Shown: one piece after another, positions 1,095 to 44,840 of the stretch
How the letters are laid out: the number at the start of each line of letters is the position of its first letter
Numbering within the stretch: position 1 is the first letter of the stretch
Source of the DNA: Cellulosimicrobium funkei
GTDB taxonomy: Bacteria; Actinomycetota; Actinomycetes; Actinomycetales; Cellulomonadaceae
Direction: 5' to 3'
DNA: 64,000 bases
Assembly: GCF_001019615.1 (NCBI RefSeq)
Contig: NZ_JNBQ01000002.1
Coordinates: forward strand, 1-64,000
Program-made: the position numbers and the translations under genes
Notes under the pieces: model-generated
The model's database searches: none
The model's input: only the letters and a program-made list of their open reading frames with translations
What the model was told of the DNA's origin: nothing

Positions 1095-1531
1095 GACGGC
1101 ACGGGGAGCAGGCCGGCCCAGCGGCGGCCGAGGTCGACGAGCCCCACGCGCGGGAGCGCGTCGACCTCGTCGGGCGTGAACCAGCCGACGTCGTCGGTCG
1201 ACTCGTCCTCCTCGACGCGCAGCTCGCCGCCCACCACGTGGGCGCTGTAGACGATCCGGACGGCGTGCAGCGCGCGGTCGCGGTCCTCCACCCGCAGGCG
1301 GTCGGCCGCGGCGACGACGATGCTGTCCACGCCGAGCAGGCCGTCGAGCTCGACGTCGTAGCCGGTCTCCTCGGCCACCTCGCGCACGGCCGCCGCCTCG
1401 GGGTGCTCGCCGGGGTCGATGCCGCCGCCGGGGAGGGTCCAGCCGCCGTGGTCCCCCTCGCTCCAGTGGGGGAGGAGCATCCTCCCGTCCTCGCGGACGA
1501 TCACGGCGTAGGCGGCGACGCGGATCTGCAT
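1091..1531 (-). CDS. NUDIX hydrolase
   Basis: The 146-residue protein carries the NUDIX box from about residue 36: GGGIDPGEHPE followed by REVAEETGY, matching GX5EX7REUXEEXGU. This motif binds divalent metal and hydrolyses nucleoside diphosphates linked to another group. The start ATG at 1531 gives MQIRVAAYAVI, a normal first beta strand for the family; an open frame continues 106 codons upstream but overlaps the PadR promoter and is not protein-like. It forms a two-gene operon with the lipoprotein and is divergent from the PadR gene. The exact substrate cannot be told from sequence. Confidence 0.88.
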   Translation of the reverse strand: MQIRVAAYAVIVREDGRMLLPHWSEGDHGGWTLPGGGIDPGEHPEAAAVREVAEETGYDVELDGLLGVDSIVVAAADRLRVEDRDRALHAVRIVYSAHVVGGELRVEEDESTDDVGWFTPDEVDALPRVGLVDLGRRWAGLLPVPS

Positions 1532-1584
1532 GGACCCATCATGCGCGACGGCCGTCGTCGCCCTGGGGTTGGCCCCAGGAGTCC

Positions 1585-1626
1585 TTGCGCAAGCAATCGT
1601 GATCGAATACTCTGAGCAAAGTATTC
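1585..1626 (+). promoter_or_regulatory. Candidate promoter and operator of the padR-like gene
   Basis: A 22 bp inverted repeat GAATACT-N8-AGTATTC occupies 1605-1626, ending 11 bp before the PadR start codon. A weak promoter fits over it: TTGCGC at 1585-1590, 17 bp spacer, TACTCT at 1608-1613. PadR proteins commonly repress their own promoters through AT-rich palindromes. The palindrome is seen; its use as the PadR operator is inference. Confidence 0.6.
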
Positions 1627-1637
1627 GGAGGTGAGCG

Positions 1638-2303
1638 ATGTCCCGTCGTCCTGTGTCCAACCCGCTCGCCCTCGCCGTGCTCGCGAGCCTGGCCGAGCGA
1701 CCCATGTACCCGTACGAGATCACGACGACCCTGCGCGAGCGGGGCAAGGACGACAGCATCCGGCTCAACTTCGGCTCGCTGTACTCCGTCATCAAGTCGC
1801 TCGAGAAGCACGGCTTCATCACGCCGTCGCACTCGGAGCGCGAGGGCAACCGCCCCGAGCGCGTCGTCTACGAGATCACGGAGGCGGGCAAGGTCGAGGC
1901 GGCCGCGTGGCTGCGCGAGCTGCTCGCCGTGCCGTCCAAGGAGTACCCGGACGTCGAGGCTGGGCTGTCGCTCATCGCCATGCTGTCGCCCGAGGAGGTC
2001 GCGGCGCTCCTGCGCGCGCGCCTCGCGTCGCTCGACAACGAGATCCGCACGCGCGACGCCGGGCTCACCGGCGCTGCCGCGGCCGGTCTTCCGGAGATCT
2101 TCCTCGTCGAGGCCGACTACCGGCTGGCCATGCTGCGCGCGGAGCGCGCCTGGATCGACCGGTTCGCCGCACGCCTGGAGGCGGGCGAGGTCGGTGGCCA
2201 GGACGGCTGGGCCGAGATGGCGCGGCTGCGCGCCGCGGGCGCGTCGCCCGAGGAGATCGAGGAGGTCGTGCGCCGCCACCTGCCCGCCGACCCCACCCCC
2301 TGA
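1638..2303 (+). CDS. PadR family transcriptional regulator
   Basis: The 221-residue protein has an N-terminal winged helix (about 8-85) typical of PadR: LALAVLASLAERPMYPYEI, then FGSLYSVIKSLEKHGFI and a Y-E-I-T wing. A C-terminal helical half (about 95-215), as in the Vir/AphA-like dimerisation domain, follows. PadR proteins with DrrAB-type exporters next to them usually sense the exported hydrophobic compound. The RBS GGAGG at 1627-1631 is well placed before ATG. The ABC exporter genes follow after a strong hairpin, so the regulator probably controls itself and the exporter. Confidence 0.9.
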   Translation: MSRRPVSNPLALAVLASLAERPMYPYEITTTLRERGKDDSIRLNFGSLYSVIKSLEKHGFITPSHSEREGNRPERVVYEITEAGKVEAAAWLRELLAVPSKEYPDVEAGLSLIAMLSPEEVAALLRARLASLDNEIRTRDAGLTGAAAAGLPEIFLVEADYRLAMLRAERAWIDRFAARLEAGEVGGQDGWAEMARLRAAGASPEEIEEVVRRHLPADPTP

Positions 2304-16094: not shown

Positions 16095-16817
16095 TCAGGC
16101 GGGGCTCGCCCAGCCCGCGCGGACGCGGTCGACGAGGCGGTCGAGGAGGTCGGCCCACACGCGGCGCGAGGCGTCGTCGTCGGCGGCACCGGTCGCGGCC
16201 CACCAGCGGCGCTGGATCACCAGGACGCCGGCCATGAGCGCGCCGACGAGCATCTCGATCTCGAGCGGGTCGACGTCGGGGTGCCGGCGCGTGGTCTCGG
16301 CGACCAGGCGCTCGGCGAGGTGGGTGAACGTGCGCACGACCATGGTCGTGACGCGCGGGGTGGGCTCGGTCGCGGTGCCGCCGAGGGCGCGCGTGAGGTA
16401 GGCCATCGGGCCGACGAGGTCCGTGCCGCGGAGCGCCGCGGTGACGTCGTCGAGCGGGGTCGTGCGGTCGGTCCCGGGGTCGGCCGCGCTCGCCCCGAGC
16501 GCGTCGACCACCGTGCCCAGCACGTCCTCGCACACCTCGACGACGACGTCGTCCAGGGACGCGAAGTGGTTGAAGATCGTGCGCCGCGCGACGTCGGCGC
16601 GTGCCGCGAGCTCGTCGACGGTGAACCGGGCGCCGCCGTTCTCCTCCATGAGCGACGCCGCGGCGTCGACGATCGCGCGGCGGTGCCGCGCGCGCAGCGC
16701 AGCGCGGCGATCGGTCGCCGGGCCGGTCGCGGGGTCGCTCACGGAGTCGGTCGCGGGGTCGGTCGCCAGGTCGGGCACGGGCACGCCCGACGGCTCGGTC
16801 GCGGAGGGGAGGGGCAC
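16095..16817 (-). CDS. TetR family transcriptional repressor
   Basis: The 240-residue protein has a TetR HTH (about 40-90: AIVDAAASLMEENGGARFTVDELAARADVARRTIFNHF) and a helical ligand-binding domain. The first 36 residues are a repetitive Asp/Ala/Thr/Pro tail. The GTG start at 16817 is supported by a leaderless promoter: the hexamer TAGTGT ends 6 nt before it. A near-perfect palindrome lies between the -35 and -10, so it very probably represses itself and the downstream MMPL exporter, releasing DNA when the exported compound binds. The 99 bp to the exporter start hold only its RBS and GC-rich repeats. Confidence 0.9.
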   Translation of the reverse strand: MPLPSATEPSGVPVPDLATDPATDSVSDPATGPATDRRAALRARHRRAIVDAAASLMEENGGARFTVDELAARADVARRTIFNHFASLDDVVVEVCEDVLGTVVDALGASAADPGTDRTTPLDDVTAALRGTDLVGPMAYLTRALGGTATEPTPRVTTMVVRTFTHLAERLVAETTRRHPDVDPLEIEMLVGALMAGVLVIQRRWWAATGAADDDASRRVWADLLDRLVDRVRAGWASPA

Positions 16818-16823
16818 CTCTTG

Positions 16824-16853
16824 ACACTAAGTGCATCGGTGCACTGAGTGCAA
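16824..16853 (-). promoter_or_regulatory. TetR operator embedded in a leaderless promoter
   Basis: On the minus strand TTGCAC (16848-16853) and TAGTGT (16824-16829) are 18 bp apart. Overlapping them is an inverted repeat with 11 bp arms, one mismatch and a 4 bp centre (16825-16835 and 16840-16850, TGCACT words). This is the classic layout for TetR autorepression. Confidence 0.8.
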
Positions 16854-16919
16854 ACAGCGCTCCGAACGGCTCAAAGTTGACCGATCAAGTCCAGTATGTG
16901 GGAAGGTCTCCTCGGTGCG

Positions 16920-16949
16920 TTGACACCCCGCGGTGGCCGCTCGTAAGTT
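16920..16949 (+). promoter_or_regulatory. Promoter of the sulfur-metabolism island
   Basis: A perfect TTGACA (16920-16925) stands 18 bp before TAAGTT (16944-16949). It precedes the SAM-IV aptamer by about 40 bp and is the best sigma-70-type promoter in the window. A TTGA-CCGA-TCAA palindrome (16877-16888) upstream could be an activator or repressor site. Confidence 0.65.
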
Positions 16950-16989
16950 CCCGCGCAACCGAGGTCGACGTACCCCGGTCACAGGACAT

Positions 16990-17071
16990 GGTCATGAGCT
17001 CCGACGCCAAGCCCCGGCTCGTCGGACGGCAACCCTCCCGCGCGGTGGGGTGCCCCGGGTGAGGACCAGGT
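16990..17071 (+). ncRNA. SAM-IV riboswitch
   Basis: The sequence matches the conserved SAM-IV core: closing pairs GGTC/GACC at the ends, the CCAAGCCCCGGC stretch, the conserved GGCAACCCTCC join, and GGGGTGCCCCGGGTGA near the 3' side. SAM-IV aptamers are found in actinobacteria ahead of sulfur and methionine genes and lower expression when SAM is plentiful. A CCCCGCG-CGG-CGCGGGG hairpin follows at 17087-17103 and may belong to the expression platform. Identity is from recalled consensus and from alignment with the two further copies here (31188 and 44759). Confidence 0.88.
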
Positions 17072-17145
17072 CCCGCGTCGCGCGGACCCCGCGCGGCGCG
17101 GGGCAACGACGCGGAGCCCGGCGACGGGCACGAAGGAGACGGACG

Positions 17146-17277
17146 ATGGACCGGCGAATGTCGAGCACCGCGGTGAGCACCGCGCACGTGTCGACGTGCC
17201 CCTGTCCGTTCGCGGGCGGCCCTGGCGCCCTCGCCCTCGGGGCCACGGGTCCCGCGCGCGTCGCCTGTTGTCGCTGA
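17146..17277 (+). CDS. Cys-rich leader peptide, putative attenuator
   Basis: A 43-residue ORF with a good RBS (GAAGGAG, 17132-17138) starts at ATG 17146. It contains CPCP in its middle and ends ARVACCR before TGA, so four of its residues are cysteine in clusters. Short Cys-rich ORFs upstream of sulfur genes act as cysteine-responsive attenuators in mycobacteria and other actinobacteria: ribosomes stall at Cys codons when cysteine is scarce. It lies between the SAM-IV aptamer and the first monooxygenase gene. The remaining 168 bp to 17446 are GC-rich with no other feature seen. Translation and function are inferred. Confidence 0.6.
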   Translation: MDRRMSSTAVSTAHVSTCPCPFAGGPGALALGATGPARVACCR

Positions 17278-17445
17278 CGACGACCCGCCTCTGACACCCC
17301 GCGCCACCCCGCGCGCGGTCCGGGTCCCTCCCGGCTTCCCCAGCCCCGTCCTGCCGCCGCGCGTGGCCGGACCGCCCTGCCCACCTTCCGGCACCCCGCC
17401 GCGCCCTGAGCGCGCCGTCGGCTCAACTGAGAACGGATCCTCGCG

Positions 17446-18600
17446 ATGTCCGACCCCCGCCCCGCCCGCTCCCTCCACCTCGGCGTCGACCTCACCGACG
17501 CCGGCGCGCACCCCGCCGCCTGGCGGACCGTGGGCTCCCAGGCCCAGCGGCTCTTCGACGCCAAGCGCCTCGTCGAGCTCGTCGCCACCGCCCAGCGCGG
17601 CCTGCTCGACCTCGTCGCGCTCGACGACGCGTTCACGCTCCAGCCCGGCCGCAACGGGTCCGTGCGGGGCCGTCTCGACGCTGCGCTCGTCGCGTCCCGC
17701 CTCGCGCCGCGCAGCGCAGGCATCGGTCTCGTCCCGACGGTCACCACCACGCACACCGAGCCGTTCCACGTGTCCAAGGCGATCGCGACGATCGACCACG
17801 TGAGCTCCGGGCGCGCGGGGTGGCAGGTCGGGTGGTCGACGACGCCGGCCGAGGCCGCCGCGTTCGGTCGCAAGGGCGCGCAGGACGAGCCCGACGCCGT
17901 CGCCGAGGCGGACGAGGCCGTGGAGGTCGTCACGCGCCTGTGGGACTCGTGGGAGGACGACGCCGAGATCCGCGACGTCGCGACGGGCCGGTTCGTGGAC
18001 CGCGAGAAGCTCCACTACGTCGACCACGAGGGCATCCGGTTCGCCGTCAAGGGGCCGTCCATCACGCCGCGGCCACCGCAGGGCCAGCCGCCCGTCGTCG
18101 TCCGCGCGGACACGCCCGCCTCGCTCGACCTCGCGGCCCGCCGGGCCGACGTCGTCCGGGTCCGCGCTGCGACCCGTGACGAGGCCGTCGCCCTACGGAC
18201 GCAGGTGCGCGACGCGGCCGCGGACGCCGGACGCGACCCCGACGCCCTCCGGGTCCTCGTCGACGCCTACGTCGTCATCGGCGACACGCGCGCGAGCGCC
18301 CAGGCCCGCCTCGACCTGCTCGAGGACCTCGAGGGCGTCTCGTGGGACACCGACTCGCTCACGCACGTCGGCACGGCGCGCGACCTCGCGGTCACGGTCG
18401 AGGAGTGGGCGCACGCCGGCGCGGCCGACGGGTTCCTCCTGCGTCCGTCGTCCCTGAGCACCGACCTCGACGCGATCGTCGACGGCGTCGTGCCGCTCCT
18501 CCAGGGGGCCGGTCTGTTCCGCACGGCCTACCCCGGGACGACGCTGCGCGACACGCTCGGCCTCCCGCTCCCCGCCAACCGCTACGCGGCGATCGCCTGA
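17446..18600 (+). CDS. LLM class flavin-dependent monooxygenase (1)
   Basis: The 384-residue protein has the luciferase-like TIM barrel: RGLLDLVALDDAF after the first strand, GLVPTVTTTHTEPFHVSKAIATIDHVSSGRAGWQVGWS around the flavin site, and a C-terminal DGFLLRPSS segment. It is closest in pattern to the NtaA/SnaA/DszA branch, which oxidises small organic compounds with reduced FMN supplied by a separate reductase. It is the first enzyme of the SAM-controlled island. No strong RBS is visible before ATG. The substrate is unknown; an organosulfur compound is inferred from context. Confidence 0.85.
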   Translation: MSDPRPARSLHLGVDLTDAGAHPAAWRTVGSQAQRLFDAKRLVELVATAQRGLLDLVALDDAFTLQPGRNGSVRGRLDAALVASRLAPRSAGIGLVPTVTTTHTEPFHVSKAIATIDHVSSGRAGWQVGWSTTPAEAAAFGRKGAQDEPDAVAEADEAVEVVTRLWDSWEDDAEIRDVATGRFVDREKLHYVDHEGIRFAVKGPSITPRPPQGQPPVVVRADTPASLDLAARRADVVRVRAATRDEAVALRTQVRDAAADAGRDPDALRVLVDAYVVIGDTRASAQARLDLLEDLEGVSWDTDSLTHVGTARDLAVTVEEWAHAGAADGFLLRPSSLSTDLDAIVDGVVPLLQGAGLFRTAYPGTTLRDTLGLPLPANRYAAIA

Positions 18601-18619: not shown

Positions 18620-20026
18620 ATGAGCACGCGCCCCCGCAAGCAGATCCACCTCGGCGCCCACTTCCCGGGCGTCAACAACACCACGGTCTGGAGCGACCCC
18701 CGCTCGCGCAGCCAGATCGACTTCGCCTCGTTCGAGCATCTCGCCCGCCGCGCCGAGGACGCGAAGCTCGACTTCTTCTTCCTCGCCGAGGGCCTGCGCC
18801 TGCGCGAGCACAAGGGCCGCATCCACGACCTCGACGTCGTGGGGCGACCCGACACGCTGCCCGTCCTCGCCGCGCTCGCGGCCGTCACGGACCGCCTCGG
18901 CCTCGCGGGCACGATCAACACGACGTTCAACGAGCCGTGGGAGCTCGCGAAGCAGTTCGCGACGCTCGACCTGCTCTCCGAGGGCCGCGCGGCGTGGAAC
19001 CTCGTGACGAGCCCCGACGCCTTCACGGGCGCCAACTTCCGCCGCGGCGGCTACCTCCCGTACCCGGAGCGCTACGCGCGGGCGGCCGAGGTCGTCGAGG
19101 TCACGCGCGCCCTGTGGGACTCGTGGGACGACGACGCGGTGCTGGCCGACCGGATCGCGGGCGAGTTCCTGCGCCCCGGGTCGGTGCGGCCGGTCGCGCA
19201 CCACGGGACGTACGCGGACGTCGTCGGGCTGTTCGAGACGCCGCGCGGCCCGCAGGGCCATCCCGTCCTGTTCCAGGCGGGCGACTCGGCCGACGGCCGC
19301 GACTTCGCCGCCCGGACCGCCGACGTCGTGTTCTCCGCGCACTCGACGTTCGACGCCGGGCGCGCGTTCTGCGAGGACGTCAAGGGGCGCCTCGCCGCCC
19401 ACGGGCGCGAGCGAGACTCCCTGAAGATCCTGCCCGCGACCGTCGTCGTGCTGGGCGACACGCCCGCCGAGGCGGAGGAGCGCGCGCGGGAGATCCGGCT
19501 CCAGCAGGTCTCGGGCCCGACGGCGATCGCGTTCCTCGAGCAGGTCTGGGGCCGCGACCTCGAGGCGTACGACCCCGAGGGGCCGCTGCCCGACGTCGAC
19601 CCCGACACCGAGAACCTGTCGATCACGCGGGGGCGCGTGCGGCACGCGAAGGACCCGGCGGCGGTCGCCGAGGCGTGGCGCGAGCAGGCCGAGGCGAACG
19701 GCTGGTCGATCCGCGAGCTCGTCATCCAGGTGACGTCGCGCGGCGGGTTCGTCGGCACGCCGCAGCAGGTCGCGGACGACATCGACCGCCACGTCCAGGA
19801 GGACGCCTCCGACGGCTTCATCCTCGTCCCGCACCTCACGCCGGGCGGGCTCGACGACGTCTTCGACCGCGTCGTCCCGCTCCTCCAGGAGCGCGGGTCG
19901 TTCCGCACCGAGTACGAGGGCACGACCCTGCGCGAGCACCTCGGCCTCGCGCGGCCCGGCACCGCGCCGCGCGCCGCCGACCCCGAGCCCTCGGCGGCCT
20001 CCGCCGAGCTCGTCGGCCGACCGTAG
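18620..20026 (+). CDS. NtaA/SnaA/DszA family FMN-dependent monooxygenase (2)
   Basis: The 468-residue protein matches the nitrilotriacetate monooxygenase family: KQIHLGAHFPGVNN at the start, FFFLAEGLRLREHKG, LAGTINTTFNEPWELAKQFATLDLLSEGRAAWNLVTS and RYARAAEVVEV. These enzymes use FMNH2 and oxygen to cleave C-N or C-S bonds, as in dibenzothiophene sulfone (DszA) or EDTA breakdown. It lies 19 bp after LLM 1 and is probably translated from the same mRNA. A piece of a type C palindrome follows the stop. Confidence 0.92.
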   Translation: MSTRPRKQIHLGAHFPGVNNTTVWSDPRSRSQIDFASFEHLARRAEDAKLDFFFLAEGLRLREHKGRIHDLDVVGRPDTLPVLAALAAVTDRLGLAGTINTTFNEPWELAKQFATLDLLSEGRAAWNLVTSPDAFTGANFRRGGYLPYPERYARAAEVVEVTRALWDSWDDDAVLADRIAGEFLRPGSVRPVAHHGTYADVVGLFETPRGPQGHPVLFQAGDSADGRDFAARTADVVFSAHSTFDAGRAFCEDVKGRLAAHGRERDSLKILPATVVVLGDTPAEAEERAREIRLQQVSGPTAIAFLEQVWGRDLEAYDPEGPLPDVDPDTENLSITRGRVRHAKDPAAVAEAWREQAEANGWSIRELVIQVTSRGGFVGTPQQVADDIDRHVQEDASDGFILVPHLTPGGLDDVFDRVVPLLQERGSFRTEYEGTTLREHLGLARPGTAPRAADPEPSAASAELVGRP

Positions 20027-31187: not shown

Positions 31188-31269
31188 GGTGACGAGCGTC
31201 AGCACGCAGGCCCGGCTCGCTGACCAGCAACCCTTCGACGTGACGGGGTGCTCCGGGAACGACCTGACC
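31188..31269 (+). ncRNA. SAM-IV-like riboswitch, divergent copy
   Basis: The sequence aligns with the aptamer at 16990 and 44759: GGTGACGAG at the 5' end, GCCCGGCTCGCTGACCAGCAACCC in the core and CGGGGTGCTCCGGGAACGACC at the 3' side. The outer helix is shifted (AGGT/ACCT), and CCAAG becomes GCAGG, so it may be a variant class (SAM-I/IV). TTGACT at 31151 is a -35-like hexamer upstream. A CCGCGCCGG/CCGGCGCGG hairpin (31318-31343) lies between it and the binding protein gene; it may be the expression platform. No other feature was seen in 31270-31404. Confidence 0.72.
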
Positions 31270-31404
31270 GCGTGGCTCCCGCCGCGCGGTAAGCACGGCA
31301 CCCCGGTGGGTTCCCCGCCGCGCCGGCCCTCGGCCCGGCGCGGACGACCACCGGCGCCGGACGATCGCCGGTCCTCAGCCGGCACACGAGGAGAGCAGCA
31401 CGAC

Positions 31405-44685: not shown

Positions 44686-44758
44686 GTGTACCTCGCAGTA
44701 GTCGTCGATCACGCTTGCCGCGCGGCCGTCCCGCGGGTGCGGGGCCGGTCGCGCGCGG

Positions 44759-44840
44759 CCTGGTCATCTCCCGGAGCACCCCGCCGTGACAGGGGGTTGC
44801 CGACCAGCGAGCCGGGGCTTGGCACTGGTGCTCGTGACCT
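44759..44840 (-). ncRNA. SAM-IV riboswitch (minus strand)
   Basis: Read on the minus strand it starts GGTCACGAG, contains CCAAGCCCCGGC, GGCAACCCCC and GGGGTGCTCCGGGAGA, and ends TGACCAGG; GGTCA/TGACC close the outer helix. It aligns almost base for base with 16990-17071. TATACC (44848-44853) just upstream is a likely -10, so the RNA starts at the aptamer. Downstream, GCCGCGCG/CGCGCGGC arms precede the FMN reductase start and could be the expression platform. The rest of the gap to gdhA (45032) shows no clear promoter for it, only its RBS. Confidence 0.9.

Follow-up and report, generated by a model that had tools for sequence, protein, structure and literature searches.

The locus analysed here lies within a window of 64,000 nucleotides (by which we mean the whole stretch of DNA that was analysed), and consists of two monooxygenase genes preceded by a leader in which a SAM-IV aptamer is followed by a short ORF ending in cysteine codons. 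Its features, all on the forward strand, are these:

16920 to 16949, forward: candidate promoter, TTGACA-18 nt-TAAGTT, read from the sequence and kept in same-genus orthologs
16990 to 17117, forward: SAM-IV aptamer (RF00634, 77.7 bits); the match itself covers 16990 to 17088, the tail probably reaching about 17117
17132 to 17138, forward: Shine-Dalgarno sequence GAAGGAG of the leader ORF, read from the sequence and invariant in the aligned same-genus leaders
17146 to 17277, forward: Cys-terminal leader ORF of 43 codons, from its translation, its conservation and a position common to the Cys ORFs of other genera
17197 to 17205, forward: first Cys pair, CPC, encoded as TGC CCC TGT; of ten loci in the genus, nine keep the first Cys codon and all ten the second
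17266 to 17277, forward: TGT TGT CGC TGA (Cys-Cys-Arg-stop), proposed stalling site; TGT kept in 10 and 9 of 10 same-genus loci
17278 to 17445, forward: C-rich, G-poor untranslated spacer (C 86, G 47; no intrinsic terminator), proposed Rho loading region
17446 to 18600, forward: first structural gene, an FMN-dependent (luciferase-like) monooxygenase of the NtaA/DmoA family (TIGR03860, PF00296)
18620 to 20026, forward: second monooxygenase gene, NtaA/DmoA family (TIGR03860)

The aptamer is a full-length match in an Rfam search (16990-17088 (+), E 4e-12), and its 77.7 bits compare with a gathering score of 38 bits for RF00634; the alignment places the last helix poorly, and to judge from the sequence itself the conserved 3' tail reaches about 17117. 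The ORF, which translates as MDRRMSSTAVSTAHVSTCPCPFAGGPGALALGATGPARVACCR followed by a stop, is equipped for initiation and stands between the promoter and the first gene, GAAGGAG lying 7 nt upstream of the ATG at 17146 and both being kept in orthologs (17132-17148). Its Cys codons start at 17197 (TGC), 17203 (TGT), 17266 (TGT) and 17269 (TGT), the last two standing immediately before the terminal CGC TGA. A preliminary description of this DNA had credited the ORF with a good ribosome-binding site, a CPCP motif and a CCR ending, and had placed it between the aptamer and the first enzyme gene, and it was right both in description and in coordinates (GAAGGAG, ...STCPCP... and a final ...VACCR; aptamer from 16990, ORF 17146-17277, gene from 17446). 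The peptide has no match at E<=1 to the NCBIfam models NF042934, NF042933 or NF042936. Downstream, 168 nt separate the ORF stop (17277) from the first monooxygenase gene (17446), and the second gene (18620) starts 19 nt past the stop of the first (18600); the two are probably co-transcribed, and the monooxygenase is a probable sulfur-scavenging enzyme.

The surroundings deserve a few words of their own. The -10 box of the candidate promoter is too weak for a consensus scan, and the leader has its intergenic region in common with a divergent TetR-family regulator gene (16095-16817 (-)), so that control at the protein level may be a further input to the operon. Three other SAM-IV aptamers occur in the genome, at 31188-31301 (+) and 44706-44839 (-) of the window and at G000:C22:48296-48411; they precede genes for a family-5 solute-binding protein and an FMN reductase and are followed by no Cys ORF. 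With its several monooxygenases and transporters, the region has the look of an island for sulfur acquisition.

Conservation and recurrence of the leader ORF

A 531-nt leader query finds matches over almost all of its length in nine other genomes from the genus, at 82-98% identity, and all nine orthologs keep the Shine-Dalgarno sequence, the ATG, the N-terminal MDRR and the CPCP block (YPCP in one species), together with an ORF end that reads CCR or CRR. The middle of the ORF diverges within the genus and its length differences are multiples of three; past the stop, the spacer has indels of other lengths. A substitution test gives N/S of 0.46-1.39 according to the group and is uninformative on the peptide as a whole, with only the frame, the ends and the Cys codons held. 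In the genus of the window the peptide is without purifying selection (N/S 1.39), yet its Cys codons are nearly invariant (TGC in 9 of 10 loci, the three TGT in 10, 10 and 9), which is the pattern expected of an attenuator peptide and not of a functional microprotein.

The choice of Cys codon is equally marked. Leader ORFs use TGT 128 times and TGC 32 times (80% TGT, n=160), and the preference stays when one ORF is taken per sequence group (42 to 12, n=54), while the 39 genes of the window use TGT twice and TGC 69 times (n=71), Cys making up 0.43% of their codons. Some attenuators use rare synonymous codons for the amino acid that they sense.

How far the arrangement extends can be judged from the DNA upstream of 70 homologous monooxygenase genes within the bacterial family, the genus of the window included. 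Two architectures dominate among the SAM-IV loci: in nine the enzyme gene is the first to start, 108-148 nt past the aptamer core, and in 38 a Shine-Dalgarno-led short ORF starts at +81 to +125, with the enzyme gene further downstream. An ATG ORF at +95 to +126, led by a Shine-Dalgarno sequence and with two or more Cys among its 14 C-terminal residues, is present in 36 of 42 long SAM-IV leaders, where dinucleotide shuffles lead one to expect 0.015; these are kin loci before homologous genes, so that the counts are not independent, and they contain many mutually unalignable peptides. In five of the six remaining long leaders (L144, L169, L176, L178 and L196) there is still a short ORF, with a Cys as its last residue or close to it. 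In nine genera of the family, genes for this kind of monooxygenase are preceded by tandems whose ORF has two or more Cys. Across genera, alignment of the short ORFs fails beyond the first Met and the Cys near the end, as a handful of examples will illustrate: MTRYGTSAAVTCPPMLSDACPSARSALRASCCR, MSSDGRPTTALWILRPCCPGACCR, MYRSQCRCCCR, MTRSAASAVHVSLPSRYVAARAGVAPREDMCCRCSCR and MSTRSLTADVRATHLCTRCRVMCAAESCR.

We also observed that TGTCGCTGA (Cys-Arg-stop; 17266-17277 in the window) recurs at ORF ends across genera, its Arg nearly always CGC. This is stricter than the sensing of Cys alone needs, and a role at the RNA level is possible. A pattern search for GGCAACC followed by CCR-stop in 396 genomes of the order was too loose to be of use, nearly all of the matches listed being chance hits in unrelated sequence.

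Each element is also found without the other. Some relatives have the Cys ORF and no SAM-IV aptamer (L146-L152, L159, L181-L183), and a permissive search of six such loci uncovered no degenerate SAM-IV; in an Oerskovia locus of this kind (L234, Cellulomonadaceae) the peptide is identical to that of L151. Other relatives have SAM-IV alone (L184-L187, L190, L197, L198, L202, L204). More distant homologs in the class, Streptomyces included, often have leader ORFs with Cys that are recognisably of one type (...RPHIDLQRVAGALCCS), again without SAM-IV, and one of these is accepted by the NCBIfam model NF042934 ('putative leader peptide'). The tandem itself is found outside the family too: at L021, which belongs to a different family within the order, an aptamer of the SAM-IV class (99.7 bits) is followed by an ORF ending in ...RRHVDLQRVSSATCCC and a stop, and then by a gene that we take, from its N-terminus read by eye, to be cysD, for sulfate adenylyltransferase subunit 2. 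The L021 ORF passes NF042934 (32.6 bits against a cut-off of 27), and this locus ties the tandem of aptamer and Cys ORF to peptides that are curated as attenuators.

Several further leaders are worth recording as observations in their own right. Other candidate tandems stand before further genes at L030, L122, L109 and L034, and very short Cys ORFs past SAM-IV include MRMCCCRH (L109), MHALTSDSCRWRRA (L106) and MRMRCCHP (L034); the genes behind the L109 and L106 ORFs are presumably MetN-type ABC ATPases, and that behind L034 presumably another monooxygenase. Seven-residue ORFs with both Cys and Met (MIERMCR, MTCRMRR and MTCRMPF) occur at +110 to +114 of the SAM-IV leaders L029, L099 and L118, before a gene that we assume to encode O-acetylhomoserine sulfhydrylase (metY). 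Before one homolog a SAM-I type aptamer (RF00162, 47.3 bits; L201, 1393-1485) replaces SAM-IV, and in L198 two divergent SAM-IV aptamers lie back to back between two genes (1238-1350 (-) and 1539-1666 (+)).

A proposed two-stage reading of sulfur status

What might such a leader do? Since the start of the ORF occupies the place that the start of a directly controlled gene has elsewhere, the most economical interpretation is that SAM-IV governs initiation of the ORF, and with the ORF at the riboswitch's usual target start, the two sensors are probably in series and not merely adjacent. We think it probable, from the sequences compared here, that this is a two-stage sulfur-status leader in which SAM-IV gates a cysteine attenuator ORF, so that expression would need both low SAM and low charged Cys-tRNA. 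Translation of the ORF, binding of the ligand and the responses to it, the direction of each response, the structure that closes the ORF start and the part played by Rho are all things that we infer, and the scheme runs as follows. In the first stage the aptamer would control translation initiation of the leader ORF, and SAM would shut the ORF off. In the second, a translating ribosome would meet Cys codons, mostly the rare TGT, just before the stop. With ample charged Cys-tRNA it would finish and leave, exposing the C-rich spacer, and transcription would end early, most likely through Rho; with charged Cys-tRNA scarce it would wait on the terminal Cys codons, Rho would be kept off, and the monooxygenase operon would be transcribed. 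When SAM is present and the ORF untranslated, the RNA would be naked and Rho would be expected to act as well, giving the net rule that the operon is off unless both SAM and cysteine are low.

The preliminary description had already suggested that one leader might read both SAM and charged Cys-tRNA, and the comparative evidence supports it: the tandem recurs, its ORFs share only the Shine-Dalgarno sequence, the position and the terminal Cys, the rare TGT is preferred, and L021 links it to curated relatives. Against the scheme count three observations: fold predictions gave no consistent common structure masking the Shine-Dalgarno sequence, the window ORF is recognised by no leader-peptide model, and TGTCGCTGA is held across genera more strictly than the sensing of Cys would demand.

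The output step looks Rho-dependent because there is no intrinsic terminator: none (hairpin plus U run) lies before the monooxygenase gene within 16850-17500, and a classical attenuator built on one was rejected for this reason. The spacer past the ORF has a C/G ratio of 1.83, which only 0.3% of equal-size segments of the 64 kb attain, and in 38 tandem loci the ratio is 1.45-2.02 (mean 1.76), every tandem measured being C-rich and G-poor; gene bodies (1.07) and the intergenic regions of the window (1.13) served as controls. Between genera the spacers vary in length and sequence while the C excess persists. A C-rich, G-poor untranslated spacer without an intrinsic terminator fits Rho-dependent attenuation.

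The Cys step might instead act on translation, with a ribosome stalled at the Cys codons preventing a structure that hides the ribosome-binding site of the enzyme gene, and with no role for Rho. Attenuation acting on downstream translation is reported for the polycysteine ORFs of M. smegmatis (Canestrari 2020, doi 10.1111/mmi.14498), as these are described in PMC9031893 and cited in PMC13236596, and the monooxygenase gene start is about half paired in our folds. We nevertheless consider this possible but rather unlikely, as no hairpin, and no pairing between Cys codons and gene start, recurs across genera, and the spacers change from genus to genus in length and sequence but keep their excess of C. 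The consensus fold holds little covariation (both sides changed in 3 of 141 pairs). Within the genus, the aptamer core GCGCGG(U/C)GGGGUGCC (~17051-17065) is complementary over 15 nt to GGCACCCCGCCGCGC (~17388-17402), which sits just upstream of the enzyme gene within the otherwise variable spacer; the match is perfect in L140-L142 and includes one G-U in the window. As a direct switch this pairing was rejected, since in other genera it does not rise above shuffles.

It is also conceivable that the two elements are independent, the aptamer acting by its own means (termination, for example) and the Cys ORF as a separate attenuator, with effects that add up and are not gated. In favour of such independence, either element can stand alone before genes of this one family, but in the tandems the ORF start replaces the direct target start, something that an independent attenuator has no need of, and we regard this reading as unlikely. 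It is very improbable that the nascent Cys-rich peptide senses metal or redox state, like the CruR copper sensors, in place of tRNA charging: Cys-rich uORFs that combine metal sensing with Rho termination do exist (PMC9426467), but here the Cys are the last codons and would still be within the ribosome, the sequences have no common CXXC and differ between genera except for Cys, the rare TGT codons indicate decoding and not chemistry, and the riboswitch partner and curated relatives indicate sulfur supply. Finally, a chance ORF without function, to which the lack of purifying selection on the peptide body in the genus (N/S 1.39) might seem to point, was rejected as scarcely credible on the count of 36 of 42 against 0.015 expected from shuffles, the exclusively in-frame indels, the codon bias and the recurrence in nine genera.

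We therefore return to the gated leader. On balance, although with more reserve, we favour a wider claim: that a riboswitch with an amino-acid attenuator ORF as its direct product forms a series gate for low SAM and low Cys, present in no fewer than nine genera within a single actinobacterial family and turning up sporadically in other families, aptamer and attenuator having been gained and lost independently before the same gene family. If true, a single leader would unite a metabolite riboswitch and a tRNA-charging sensor in a natural logic gate made of RNA. With dozens of loci, in tandem, aptamer-only and attenuator-only form before one gene family, both its logic and its evolution are open to reporter fusions. 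It would also offer an answer to the question of what the long-leader SAM-IV aptamers control, and bring a metabolic signal into the coupling of riboswitch, uORF and Rho that is beginning to be described in Actinobacteria.

Comparison with known systems

Literature searches for SAM-IV with a leader peptide, or for a riboswitch with a uORF and cysteine, found no description of the composite in the open-access papers covered, in line with the preliminary view that each mechanism is known and the tandem is not; this is not, of course, proof of novelty. As a SAM-IV riboswitch, the aptamer is a conventional one (a full RF00634 aptamer well above threshold, in an actinobacterium, before sulfur-related genes), the difference being that the first ORF past it is a putative attenuator peptide and not an enzyme. 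The actinobacterial Cys-run leader peptides (PMC1262725; NF042933, NF042934, NF042936) resemble the ORF in being short, in lying ahead of sulfur genes, in carrying Cys codons close to the stop codon, and in having a pyrimidine-rich spacer, no intrinsic terminator and a proposed stalling on Cys codons; Rho has been suggested for those of mycobacterial cys operons (PMC1262725). The mycobacterial Cys ORFs, however, are leaderless and at the 5' end, whereas the window ORF has a Shine-Dalgarno sequence, follows a SAM-IV aptamer and encodes a peptide that those three models do not recognise.

Examples of riboswitches that target a translated uORF ahead of the structural gene, or work in concert with one, are the Mbox of M. 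tuberculosis, with Rho-dependent termination (PMC12810186), and a B12 riboswitch with a uORF (PMC11260477); the role of the Mbox uORF is left open by its authors, and neither paper mentions a cysteine or attenuation input. In ubiGmccBA of Clostridium acetobutylicum (PMC2940859) one sulfur operon likewise receives SAM and Cys-tRNA signals through RNA, but there Cys acts via a T-box and SAM via an S-box on an antisense RNA, whereas here a single leader would serve, with Cys read by the ribosome; no T-box element is found at the Rfam gathering threshold anywhere in the 64-kb window, so that the locus is not an S-box/T-box tandem of that sort. The mgtA leader with its mgtL uORF (PMC11552253) is similar in joining a structured leader to a uORF, expression rising when the uORF is translated slowly and termination in Salmonella being by Rho, but it senses Mg2+ and proline or acidic residues, and its uORF does not stand behind a separate metabolite aptamer. 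Each half of the present arrangement, SAM-IV and the Cys leader peptide, is already known, as is the coupling of riboswitch, uORF and Rho, and it is in their composite that the novelty would lie.
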